Of a stretch of DNA of 64,000 nt, positions 11,492-15,039 are shown in pieces. Position 1 is the stretch's first letter. Each line of letters begins with the position of its first letter. Origin of the DNA: Pseudodesulfovibrio profundus (GTDB lineage: Bacteria > Desulfobacterota > Desulfovibrionia > Desulfovibrionales > Desulfovibrionaceae); NCBI RefSeq assembly GCF_900217235.1, contig NZ_LT907975.1:744001-808000 (forward strand), given 5' to 3'. The notes below the pieces were generated by a model. The model had not been told where the DNA came from. It saw only the letters and a program-made list of their open reading frames with translations, and did no database searches. A program made the translations under genes and the position numbers.

Positions 11492-13744
11492 ATGTTGACC
11501 CCCTTTGATTCGACCAGTGTCACCGCAAATGTCGGCGACATCGACATCACTATTGAAACCGGTAAATACGCCCGACAGGCAAGCGGCGCAGTTACCATTT
11601 CTTCCGGCAATACGACCGTACTGGTCACTGCCGTTACCCAGCCCCTTGCCGTTGATCGCGGCTTCTTCCCGCTGACCTGTAACTATCAGGAAATGGCATA
11701 CGCCGCCGGTCGCGTTCCGGGTAACTACTTCCGTCGTGAAGGACGTCCTTCCGAGCACGAAACCCTGGTTTCCCGCCTCATCGACCGTCCTATTCGTCCG
11801 CTCTTCGCAGAAGGTTTTGCCGACGAAGTACAGATCATTGCAACCGTTCTGTCCGCTGACAAACACGTCAATCCGGACGTTCTGGCGCTGACTGGTGCTT
11901 CCGCAGCCTGCCACATCTCCAAGATGCCCTTCCTCGGCCCCATCGTTGGTGCCCGTGTCGGATACGTGAACAACGAGTTTGTTCTGTATCCTTCTTATAA
12001 AGGTATTGAAGAGCAGTCTTCCCTGAACCTCGTCTTCGCGGCAACCCGCGACGCCATGGTCATGGTAGAAGGTGGCGCTCAGTTCATCTCCGAAGACATC
12101 ATTGCCGATGCTCTGGCCTGGGGCCATGAGCAGGTCATGCCGCTCTTCGACATTCAGGACCAGCTTCGCGAGAAAGTCGGTGTACCCAAGCTCGAAGTCG
12201 CTGCCCCCGAGCAGGATCAGGAAATCGTTGAATTTCTGGGCGACTTCATCACCGAAGACCTTGAGAAAGCACTGACCACCCCTGAGAAGATGGTTCGTTA
12301 TGCTGCCAAGGACGCTGCAAAGAAAAAGGCACAGGAAGCTGTTGCCGAAAAATTCCCCGAAGACGAAGCCAAGCTCAAAGCTGTTGGCGATGTCATCGGC
12401 GATATGACCAAGAAAATCGTTCGCGAGCGCATCGTGAAAGAAGGCAAGCGTATCGATGGCCGCGACACCACCACGGTTCGCCCGCTGTCCATCGAAACCG
12501 GCCTGCTGCAGCAGACCCACGGTTCCGTGCTCTTCCGCCGCGGTGAGACCTCTGCTCTGGCAGTCGCCACCCTCGGCTCCACTCGCGATGAGCAACGCTA
12601 CGACTCCCTGCTGGGCGATGCTACCAAGCGCTTCATGCTCCATTACAACTTCCCCCCATACTGCGTGGGTGAAGCTCGTATGCTGCGCGGCACCTCCCGT
12701 CGTGAAGTCGGCCACGGTGCCCTGGCTGAACGCGCTCTGTCCCCGGTACTCCCGAGCCCCGAGGAATTCCCGTTCACCATCCGTGTTGTCTCCGAGATCA
12801 TGGAGTCCAACGGTTCCTCTTCCATGGCTTCCGTATGCGGCGCCACCCTGTCCCTGATGGACGCTGGTGTCCCCATCACCGAGCCGGTTGCCGGTATCGC
12901 CATGGGCCTGTGCAAGGAGAACGACGAGTACTTCATCCTCACCGACATCCTCGGTGATGAAGACGCACTGGGCGACATGGACTTCAAGGTCGCCGGTACT
13001 CGCGATGGCATCACCGCCATTCAGATGGACATCAAGATCGCCGGTATCCCACAGGACGTTCTGAAGAAGGCCCTGCACCAGGCAAAAGACGCACGTATCC
13101 ACATCCTCGACCACATGGCCGAAGAACTGGAAACCCCGCGTGAGTCCCTGTCCGAGCTGGCTCCGCAGATGGCTGTTGTTCACATTGATCCCGAAAAGAT
13201 CCGTTCTGTCATCGGACCCGGTGGCAAGAACATCAAGGCGATCACTGCTGAGACCGAAGCCGACATCGATATCGAAGATTCCGGTAAAATCTCCATCTTC
13301 GCCCCGACCATGGCATCCATGGAAAAGGCCAAGGAAATGGTCCTCTACTACGACCAGAAGCCCGAACCGGGCAAGAACTACCTCGGCACCGTCCGTAAAG
13401 TTCTCGAAGTGGGCGCCCTTGTCGAGATTCTCCCCGGCCAGGAAGGCATGCTCCACATTTCCCAGCTCGACTTCGAGCGCGTGGAACGTGTGGAAGACGT
13501 GGTCCAGCTCGGCCAGGAAGTATGGGTCAAGTGCATCGCACTGGAACCCGGCGGACGCATCCGTCTCTCCCGCAAGGCATGGCTCATGGAAGAAGCCGGT
13601 CAGGAAGTCAACCTGGACGACTTCAAGCGCCCTGCACCTCGCGGTGGTGACCGTGGTGACCGCGGTGGTCGCCGTGACAATCGCGGTGGACGCGACAATC
13701 GTGGCGGTGGTCGCCGCGACAACCGTGGCGGCGGACGTCGCTAG
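11492..13744 (+). CDS. pnp: Polyribonucleotide nucleotidyltransferase (PNPase)
   Basis: PNPase degrades RNA 3'-5' by phosphorolysis. The 750 aa protein has two RNase PH domains (about 12-140 and 325-470), the helical linker, a KH domain (I-G-P-G-G-K-N-I-K near residue 570) and an S1 domain (about 620-690). It ends in a Gly/Arg/Asp tail of about 40 residues rich in RGG and RRDN repeats. The ATG at 11492 has a GGAGG; an in-frame start 135 bases upstream would add a sequence unlike the family. A 207-base leader separates it from rpsO. Confidence 0.97.
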   Translation: MLTPFDSTSVTANVGDIDITIETGKYARQASGAVTISSGNTTVLVTAVTQPLAVDRGFFPLTCNYQEMAYAAGRVPGNYFRREGRPSEHETLVSRLIDRPIRPLFAEGFADEVQIIATVLSADKHVNPDVLALTGASAACHISKMPFLGPIVGARVGYVNNEFVLYPSYKGIEEQSSLNLVFAATRDAMVMVEGGAQFISEDIIADALAWGHEQVMPLFDIQDQLREKVGVPKLEVAAPEQDQEIVEFLGDFITEDLEKALTTPEKMVRYAAKDAAKKKAQEAVAEKFPEDEAKLKAVGDVIGDMTKKIVRERIVKEGKRIDGRDTTTVRPLSIETGLLQQTHGSVLFRRGETSALAVATLGSTRDEQRYDSLLGDATKRFMLHYNFPPYCVGEARMLRGTSRREVGHGALAERALSPVLPSPEEFPFTIRVVSEIMESNGSSSMASVCGATLSLMDAGVPITEPVAGIAMGLCKENDEYFILTDILGDEDALGDMDFKVAGTRDGITAIQMDIKIAGIPQDVLKKALHQAKDARIHILDHMAEELETPRESLSELAPQMAVVHIDPEKIRSVIGPGGKNIKAITAETEADIDIEDSGKISIFAPTMASMEKAKEMVLYYDQKPEPGKNYLGTVRKVLEVGALVEILPGQEGMLHISQLDFERVERVEDVVQLGQEVWVKCIALEPGGRIRLSRKAWLMEEAGQEVNLDDFKRPAPRGGDRGDRGGRRDNRGGRDNRGGGRRDNRGGGRR

Positions 13745-13767
13745 TCACTCCCGACTATAAACAATCA

Positions 13768-13801
13768 AGCCGTGACTGCTTTTGCAGTCACGGCTTTTTT
13801 T
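13768..13801 (+). terminator. Strong intrinsic terminator after pnp
   Basis: An 11 to 12 base stem (AGCCGTGACTG pairing with CAGTCACGGCT) around a TTTT-containing loop is followed by seven T. It closes the translation block. Confidence 0.9.
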
Positions 13802-13893
13802 CGTTTAAAGCTCCGCGCAACCAAAGTCATGGTCTGTATAGAAATTTTCTGGGGAATCCATTGAAGCAGGCAATAGAAGCAATAAAGACTTCC

Positions 13894-13921
13894 TTGCGAT
13901 GGACACAAAAAACGAAATAAT
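13894..13921 (+). promoter_or_regulatory. Candidate sigma-70 promoter for the selenoprotein gene
   Basis: TTGCGA (13894-13899) and AATAAT (13916-13921) are 16 bases apart, 28 bases before the gene's ATG. This is a weak match judged by eye only. Confidence 0.3.
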
Positions 13922-13949
13922 GATACCGTTAATTACGAAGGAGTATCCT

Positions 13950-14162
13950 ATGACGCAAATCGTGATTTACGGAAAACCGACCTGTCCGCACACAAAGCGC
14001 GCTTTGGAAGCTTACCCTCAGGCCGAATTTGTTGATGTACTGGTTTCTGATGACAACATGAATAAGATGCTGGCTCTCTCGGATGGGAGACGACGAATTC
14101 CTGTCATCGTCGATGGGGATGCTATTTCCCTGGGATTCAATGGTGGTTCATGAAATGTCTGA
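13950..14162 (+). CDS. Glutaredoxin-like UXX-star selenoprotein (UGA at 14151 read as Sec)
   Basis: This is a small thioredoxin-fold protein of the glutaredoxin type. It begins M-T-Q-I-V-I-Y-G-K-P-T-C-P-H-T-K, so its usual redox site is CPHT rather than CPYC, and it has the conserved cis-Pro segment R-R-I-P-V-I-V-D-G. Conventional translation stops at TGA 14151 after G-F-N-G-G-S (67 aa). Two sense codons and a second in-frame TGA (14160-14162) follow, so decoding the first TGA as Sec gives a 70 aa protein ending U-N-V, the arrangement that gives UXX-star selenoproteins their name. A hairpin with an AGGUU loop starts 11 bases after the UGA, as expected for a bacterial SECIS. The ATG has a GAAGGAG site; an upstream ATG at 13899 is not needed. 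Function is probably thiol/selenol redox chemistry; the partner is unknown. Confidence 0.82.
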
Positions 14163-14187
14163 TGCTCGGCAGGTTGTCGAGATGCAT
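14151..14187 (+). promoter_or_regulatory. Candidate bacterial SECIS element
   Basis: After UGA (14151-14153), CTCGGC (14165-14170) pairs with GTCGAG (14176-14181), including one G-U, around loop AGGUU (14171-14175). ATG (14162-14164) can pair with CAT (14185-14187) below a 3-base bulge. The loop begins 17 bases after the UGA and carries the AGGU core recalled from the E. coli fdhF SECIS, at the same distance. Confidence 0.78.
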
Positions 14188-14196
14188 ATTTGAAAA

Positions 14197-14224
14197 AAGC
14201 CTCTCTTTTCAGGGAGGCTTTGTT
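14197..14224. terminator. Bidirectional terminator
   Basis: AAGCCTCTC (14197-14205) pairs with GGGAGGCTT around a TTTTCA loop. A T-rich tail follows on the plus strand and an A-run precedes it, which becomes a T-run on the minus strand. It lies between the selenoprotein gene and the convergent MEMO gene. Confidence 0.75.
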
Positions 14225-14232
14225 AGTTGCAA

Positions 14233-15039
14233 TCAACTGACAAGAACACCGGCGTAACCGACAACCTGATCAAAATCGCCTGAGACTTCACCGGACGTGG
14301 CATATGTCACTAAATCCCCCTTGGTCGCTCCCATTGCGAGAGCAGCAAAAAGCCCGGTTGTCATCGGGAGAACGCCGCACATGGATATTTCATGCTCACG
14401 AACTGTTGAGAACAAGCCCCGCGGGTCCAGGCTCACGGCTGCATCCAGTGCCAGCGTATCCTTTTCCTTGGCCTGATCATGACTGATGTAATGGCTCATG
14501 TCCGAGCTGACAACAATGGACACGGGGCGGCCCAACGATTTAAGTACAGCTCCGATACTCTCCCCGACCTGTTGCAGCGCATCGAACTCGAATGCCGAAA
14601 TGGCTATGGGAACAATCGTGGTCTTGGGATTCAAGCGATGCAGGAAAGGCAGTATGACTTCAAGTGAATGCTCACCCGTATGTGCGGCCGTATCCGCGCT
14701 CAACAACGGAGTGGCTTCCAGAAGTTTGGCTGCCAGTTCCTCATCCACAGAGACGGAACCACCCGGGATATTCCAACTCCCTTCATTCCACACGGAAAAG
14801 CGTTCACCGCGCCCGGTATGATTCGGGCCGAGCAGGACGATGGTGTCGGCCAGATTCGCCTTGGCAAGAGTCTGTCCGCACACCGCGCCAGAAAAGATAT
14901 ATCCCGCATGGGGAACCATGGCCAACAACGTTGAAGCAGCGTCCTGTTGGGATTCGCCCATAAATCTGTCCACCATTTCGTTCAAGCGGGTCGGATTATC
15001 ATCGTAAAACCGACCGGCGACCACAGGTTGCCTTAGCAT
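14233..15039 (-). CDS. amrB: AmmeMemoRadiSam system protein B (MEMO1 family)
   Basis: The 268 aa protein matches the MEMO1/AmrB family, a fold related to class III extradiol dioxygenases. Family hallmarks are M-V-P-H-A-G-Y-I-F-S-G near residue 44, L-G-P-N-H-T-G near 70, T-G-E-H-S-L-E-V-I-L-P-F-L near 119 and V-V-S-S-D-M-S-H-Y near 180. These His and Asp residues form the putative metal site. The family usually occurs with an AMMECR1 domain protein and a radical SAM enzyme, neither of which is in this window. The biochemical role is not established. A GGAGG precedes the ATG. Confidence 0.92.
   Translation of the reverse strand: MLRQPVVAGRFYDDNPTRLNEMVDRFMGESQQDAASTLLAMVPHAGYIFSGAVCGQTLAKANLADTIVLLGPNHTGRGERFSVWNEGSWNIPGGSVSVDEELAAKLLEATPLLSADTAAHTGEHSLEVILPFLHRLNPKTTIVPIAISAFEFDALQQVGESIGAVLKSLGRPVSIVVSSDMSHYISHDQAKEKDTLALDAAVSLDPRGLFSTVREHEISMCGVLPMTTGLFAALAMGATKGDLVTYATSGEVSGDFDQVVGYAGVLVS

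Follow-up and report, generated by a model that had tools for sequence, protein, structure and literature searches.

A UXX-star family 1 gene of Pseudodesulfovibrio profundus with a predicted selenocysteine codon and a SECIS-like hairpin beyond the stop codon

Pseudodesulfovibrio profundus very probably encodes a selenoprotein of UXX-star family 1 at positions 13950–14162 (forward strand, UGA stop codon included) of the window, that is, of the whole stretch of 64,000 nucleotides analysed here (contig NZ_LT907975.1, positions 744,001–808,000). The gene consists of 70 codons with an in-frame UGA at 14151–14153, predicted to be decoded as selenocysteine (Sec68), and ends, after AAT and GTC, at a second UGA (14160–14162) located 9 nt 3′ of the first; insertion of Sec at UGA 14151 is suggested by comparison with relatives and by the Sec machinery of the genome. 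The gene adds a member to an already named family, for which NCBI now has a curated model, and is not a new kind of selenoprotein.

Reading frame and family assignment

In the standard reading, the frame beginning at 13950 has 67 codons and ends at the TGA at 14151; this stop, and the AAT, GTC and TGA behind it, had been described in the initial annotation, and reading of the sequence agrees. Translation of 13950–14162 with TGA as U yields 70 residues with the C-terminus GGSUNV, the U being Sec68. The start at 13950 is favoured over an upstream ATG at 13899 because a Shine-Dalgarno-like AAGGAG, recognised by reading of the sequence (13938–13943, forward strand), lies 6 nt 5′ of the ATG at 13950–13952. 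A weak promoter-like pair, TTGCGA/AATAAT (13894–13921, forward strand; 9 of 12 matches), is not significant, one having been found and 0.7 expected. A possible transcription terminator with the stem AAGCCTCTC/GGGAGGCTT and a short T tail (14197–14220, forward strand) was picked out by eye; it is absent from the output of the terminator/promoter scan.

The protein had been proposed to be a UXX-star selenoprotein, and with its tail (Sec given as Cys) it scores 94.2 bits on NF041114 (“UXX-star selenoprotein family 1”), the cut-off of which is 72; the assignment to family 1 rests on this curated model because that cut-off is passed. The tail of the Sec68 form contributes 7.5 bits, and the short form alone also passes with 86.7 bits, a point in favour of the alternative that UGA 14151 terminates a glutaredoxin-like protein of 67 residues, with nothing beyond it translated. 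On the broader UXX-star subfamily model NF041212, the P. profundus protein (60.4 bits) falls below the cut-off of 66, and so does a close relative (L016; 61.3 bits, with 93 bits on NF041114); three further relatives (L017, L019, L020) pass both models, with 74.5–78.6 bits on NF041212. The models of UXX-star family 2 (NF041211; 50.8 bits, cut-off 100), of UXX-star family 3 (NF047338; 34.5 bits, cut-off 97) and of the HUGP/GUXX-star fusion (NF045501; 29.7 bits, cut-off 325) are missed. The proteins of NF041212 and of these three models are nevertheless homologous to the P. profundus protein over nearly its full length and have a similar C-terminal tail. The Pfam Glutaredoxin model is passed with 26.6 bits (cut-off 22.9).

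In the available part of a 2026 review (PMC13188914), the entry for NF041114 reads “Distant Grx-like protein 1 (UXX-star selenoprotein family 1)” and gives the motif UxxT and a “2”, which is taken to be the number of Sec residues. “Distant Grx-like protein 1” also appears in the available part of a 2022 review (PMC9312934), and the accessible portions of PMC2398784 and PMC12013277 do not mention UXX-star. The P. profundus protein shares with family 1 the score, the length, the C-terminal U-x-x-stop and the glutaredoxin fold; it differs from the listing in its N-terminal motif, which is CPHT (Cys12–Thr15; 13983–13994, forward strand, from the translation and from relatives), so that it has one Sec. 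The form with Cys is common in its own genus. We read the listed UxxT as an example rather than a rule, because Cys stands there in 47 of the 127 Sec-tailed sequences described below and because the curated score is reached.

Conservation of the selenocysteine codon and of the hairpin

A family-wide profile search found NF041114 above its cut-off in 60 of 288 genomes of the Desulfovibrionaceae and, with these 60 among them, in 73 of 348 genomes of the class; NF041212 exceeds its cut-off in 87 of 395 genomes across the phylum. Of the 91 above-cut-off matches listed for the phylum, 90 were retrieved (G691 was left out), and many of these are not of the CPxT type and stand outside the count that follows. 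Conservation was assessed in relatives of the CPxT or UPxT type, chosen by motif and not by score, which make up 127 distinct rows in 126 loci (drawn from L016–L187, two duplicates skipped). One genome of the same genus (G222) has the same gene and tail as L016.

The C-terminal position is UGA in all 127 rows; homologues ending before this codon had been named as a finding against the Sec reading, and no row is of that kind. A stop follows exactly two codons past the U in 125 of the rows, the exceptions being L145, which ends URVV-stop and thus three codons on, and L074, which has a longer tail and no stop within five codons. Among the 125 true stops, TGA (58), TAG (36) and TAA (31) all occur; if UGA 14151 were an ordinary stop, TAA or TAG would be expected to appear at its place as well, and it is for this reason that it is not regarded as one. 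By simple arithmetic that ignores relatedness, 127 UGA codons out of 127 would arise at the TGA share of true stops with a chance of about 1e-42. The invariant UGA and the second stop at a fixed distance are thus hard to combine with a 67-residue end, which, with the points on hairpin, machinery and fold given below, is considered very improbable.

In three of the rows (L055, L056, L081) the Sec position was set by direct reading, and there the search for a stem started a codon too soon. These three end G-C-U-x-x-stop, with Cys directly before the Sec codon and TAG, TAG and TGA, respectively, as stops. Such ends recall animal thioredoxin reductases, which terminate in GCUG.

The N-terminal motif begins with U in 80 of the 127 rows and with C in the other 47; as translated, both Cys and Sec occur at this N-terminal site, but only Sec at the C-terminal one. 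A C-terminal U tail is also present in relatives of the CPxC type (L098–L101, L105, L158), which were recognised by reading. Other UXX-star-like relatives elsewhere in the phylum have neither Sec nor Cys at the C-terminal position, where Ser (L110 and L150; GGSEF, GGSEV), Thr (L114, GGTAF) or Asp (L161, GADSF) is found, and many of the CPxC-type and other-type relatives retain the full last helix. One CPxC-type protein (L158, with CPFC) carries an insertion ahead of its GGTUSV-stop tail; because of this insertion it would seem that the tail can be moved outwards.

Downstream of the gene, CTCGGC (14165–14170) and GTCGAG (14176–14181) enclose the loop AGGTT (14171–14175), forming a putative SECIS hairpin at 14165–14181 (forward strand). 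The initial annotation had reported this hairpin with the same two arms and had it begin 17 bases past the UGA; that distance is correct for the loop, but the stem starts at 11 nt. It had also likened the element to that of E. coli fdhF, rightly, as AGGU (AGGT in the gene of MG1655) follows the UGA of fdhF at 17 nt as well; the fdhF hairpin, however, lies inside the coding region and the P. profundus hairpin 3′ of the stop codon. According to the part of PMC13188914 that could be consulted, a bacterial SECIS is modelled with a loop of 3–9 nt, an upper stem of 4–16 bp, G in loop positions 1–2, a distance of 16–37 nt from the UGA and an MFE of −7.5 kcal/mol or lower, and its location inside the coding region is typical, not obligatory. 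The P. profundus hairpin has values within these limits (AGGTT loop, 6 bp, G in the second loop position, 17 nt, −9.9 kcal/mol for 14151–14195); as to location, the element departs from the typical case in lying wholly 3′ of the stop codon at 14160–14162. An Rfam scan of 13700–14400 returned matches below the gathering scores alone, none of them to a SECIS family.

Taken alone, the single P. profundus hairpin is weak evidence: its folding has a z of −0.91, with 35 of 200 shuffles folding at least equally well, and its stem score is reached by 5.6% of 2000 mononucleotide shuffles. That the hairpin by itself is not significant counts for the 67-residue end. When in-frame TGAs preceded by 50 or more open codons were scanned across the window, four passed a stem score of 16, with TGA 14151 at the top. 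Comparison among relatives changes the picture, as, judged from the aligned sequences, the hairpin is far more than chance. In an alignment of 28 of the 76 distinct downstream sequences, picked for comparable loop register, both partners vary in five of the six pairs, pairing holds in 92.3% of 168 cells (shuffle mean 79.2%), and 27 cells show a change in both partners (shuffle mean 8.6); slid alignments score far lower. This covariation speaks against an end at UGA 14151. When the loop is required to lie 14–23 nt past the UGA, the best stems of all 127 rows have a mean score of 18.5 vs 8.6 in shuffles; a score of at least 15 is attained by 117 of the 127 relatives vs 127 of 2540 sequences obtained by mononucleotide shuffling of their stretches, and in 123 of the 127 rows a G falls within the first two loop places. 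Stems at the N-terminal site score slightly higher after UGA than after Cys codons (mean 12.8 vs 10.9; at least 13 in 35 of 80 vs 8 of 47; Mann-Whitney p 0.0004, relatedness ignored), which is only a hint at a separate SECIS for the N-terminal Sec.

Two UGA codons would thus have opposite meanings on one mRNA. SelB with Sec-tRNA would bind the hairpin at 14165–14181, UGA 14151 would be decoded as Sec68 and, two codons on, the ribosome would stop at UGA 14160. The latter is presumably not recoded because it is too close to the loop; the distance is 8 nt and thus outside the model range of 16–37 nt (PMC13188914, as far as available). The arrangement recurs in nearly half of the genes, 58 of the 125 having a UGA for Sec and a UGA stop 9 nt later under one SECIS; where the stop is UGA, it lies 8–14 nt from the loop of the best stem found by the script (57 rows), which is likewise under the model range. 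Recoding of UGA 14160 as well, leading to a longer protein, would find a parallel in L074, in which no stop stands two codons past the U, so that the family may include longer tails; however, the short distance to the loop and the presence of TAA or TAG at that place in 67 of 125 relatives leave it practically negligible, and termination at UGA 14160 is the preferred reading. A literature search, of partial coverage, found no report of a SECIS beyond the stop codon, and no priority is claimed.

Selenocysteine machinery and neighbourhood

The genome of P. profundus has matches to the C-terminal domain of SelB (63.4 bits), to selA (615.7 bits), to tRNA-Sec (78.4 bits) and to selD (327.7 bits); selA, selB, selC and selD, for which the initial annotation had recommended a search, are therefore all present, and this full set is a further argument against termination at UGA 14151. 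The selD gene (L011, G000:C1:1718920–1719849) has an in-frame UGA at GUAAK (residue 32, context VKAAGUAAKIAPGDL), and the selenophosphate synthetase of P. profundus thus looks like a selenoprotein itself. In the family, SelB occurs in 230 of 288 genomes and the UXX-star gene in only 60, so that the machinery is far commoner than the gene; of the 60, 55 also have a SelB match (lists compared by hand). The five genomes with the gene and no SelB match (G155, G161, G165, G169, G176), a point against the Sec reading, are all drafts of 30–520 contigs; four of them are 67–84% complete, and G176 is 95% complete in 430 contigs.

In several genomes of the same genus (11 loci; gene names here and below by reading) the UXX-star gene adjoins pnp, in three loci (L017, L019, L020) it adjoins ptsI/ptsH-like genes, and elsewhere it has other neighbours. 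A strong terminator-like hairpin of 13 pairs 3′ of pnp (13767–13796) makes joint transcription of pnp and the selenoprotein gene improbable. In the loci read, the one neighbour that recurs in different genera is a MEMO-like gene, present in three: a MEMO-like protein encoded at 14233–15039 on the reverse strand converges on the P. profundus gene, and a similar neighbour occurs in two loci of other genera (L049, L071). As no shared neighbour points to a substrate, the neighbourhood was dropped as a guide to function.

P. profundus encodes a second glutaredoxin-like protein, with the motif CIHC (L015, G000:C1:854644–854850). A similar CIHC protein is encoded, as far as reading of the genes can tell, beside a gene like that of the catalytic subunit of ferredoxin-thioredoxin reductase (L030), an arrangement that gives a hint of ferredoxin-driven glutaredoxin reduction.

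Predicted fold and function of the selenocysteine tail

The AlphaFold model of the full-length protein has a pLDDT of 94.8, and its best matches among solved structures are the glutaredoxins 3ic4 (E 4e-5) and 4tr0 (E 1.3e-3; 1.5 Å over 66 columns); a sequence search likewise ranks 3ic4 first. A control model cut before Sec68 (67 residues) has a pLDDT of 88.6, and the mean over its last block is 66 vs 93 in the full-length model; the lowered confidence at the end of the truncated model is one more point against the 67-residue protein. Both models were built from alignments of 6 sequences with Cys in place of Sec. DSSP assigns strand or bridge to residues 49–50, 63, 66 and 68–69 of the full-length model, and in the control residues 49–50, 63 and 66 lose this mark. 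Residues 49–50 directly precede Pro51 (codon 14100–14102, forward strand), which by alignment, fold and comparison with glutaredoxins corresponds to the cis-proline of the thioredoxin fold, the cis geometry being predicted.

The body of 67 residues thus folds in the model, and termination at a UGA generally competes with Sec insertion; both would suit partial decoding, in which the 67-residue form is made when selenium is short and the 70-residue form when it is plentiful, the tail acting as a selenium-dependent switch. Against this, conservation of the Sec codon shows that the long form matters and says nothing for the short one; such a switch is regarded as rather improbable, and the 70-residue form is the one considered in what follows.

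In glutaredoxins, glutathione is bound near the cis-proline by backbone pairing, with its Cys towards the active-site Cys. From the models, the Sec tail would seem to turn back towards the cis-proline, into the groove that holds glutathione in ordinary glutaredoxins, where it may pair with residues 49–50 and bring Sec68 close to Cys12. CPHT would be a one-Cys glutaredoxin site without the usual second Cys; in place of the final helix found in ordinary glutaredoxins, the tail G-G-S-U-N-V would bend back near the cis-proline, mimicking glutathione and placing Sec68 by Cys12, so as to attack or resolve bonds formed by Cys12. The C-terminal Sec may then be the reactive residue, for which the structure models lend some support, and Cys12 and Sec68 could form a redox pair linked as a selenenylsulfide, the tail being a built-in substitute for glutathione. 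As a whole, this mechanism is put forward as a serious possibility, somewhat short of probable.

To our knowledge, the glutaredoxins cGrx1 and cGrx2 have no C-terminal Sec tail. They have the glutaredoxin fold in common with the P. profundus protein (PDB 4tr0, 7c10) and, from the reference list of PMC13188914, are taken to be those of Clostridium oremlandii; Sec-containing glutaredoxins are described in the available part of that source as having Sec in an N-terminal U/CxxC/S motif.

Searches of the P. profundus genome with the glutamate-cysteine ligase families PF04107 and PF04262 gave no match, and it is for this reason that a tail serving as internal glutathione fits the genome. A single match to glutathione synthetase (PF02955) was rejected, as it reads like a RimK-type ATP-grasp protein. 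P. profundus would appear to be without glutathione synthesis.

A different role is conceivable for a genuine selenoprotein of this kind, namely that Sec68 is a ligand for a metal or metalloid, for example mercury or arsenic, and not the redox partner of Cys12. The available part of PMC13188914 gives metal binding or contact with unknown substrates as possible roles of the Sec in UXX-star proteins, and a C-terminal selenol beside a thiolate could in principle bind soft metals. However, the glutaredoxin fold is retained, and no metal-resistance gene was recognised, by reading, among the nearest neighbours of 16 loci; a ligand role is held to be less probable than not, though more probable than a selenium-dependent switch, and the redox pair of Cys12 and Sec68 is preferred.

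Extended to the family, these observations lead to a proposal that is made still more tentatively than the tail mechanism itself. UXX-star family 1 may be a glutathione-free glutaredoxin, the Sec tail of which lies permanently in the groove as a covalent “internal glutathione” with a Sec that Cys could not replace, and its mRNA may be a natural ruler, on which one SECIS in the 3′ untranslated region lets a UGA mean Sec and a UGA 9 nt on mean stop. The arrangement of the two UGA codons would offer a ready-made system to measure how far SelB can reach. The view across the family is more useful than the single gene, and both the tail mechanism and the two-UGA arrangement merit experiment; if the idea of the tail is true, it would give a simple account of the working of a one-Cys glutaredoxin where glutathione is lacking.
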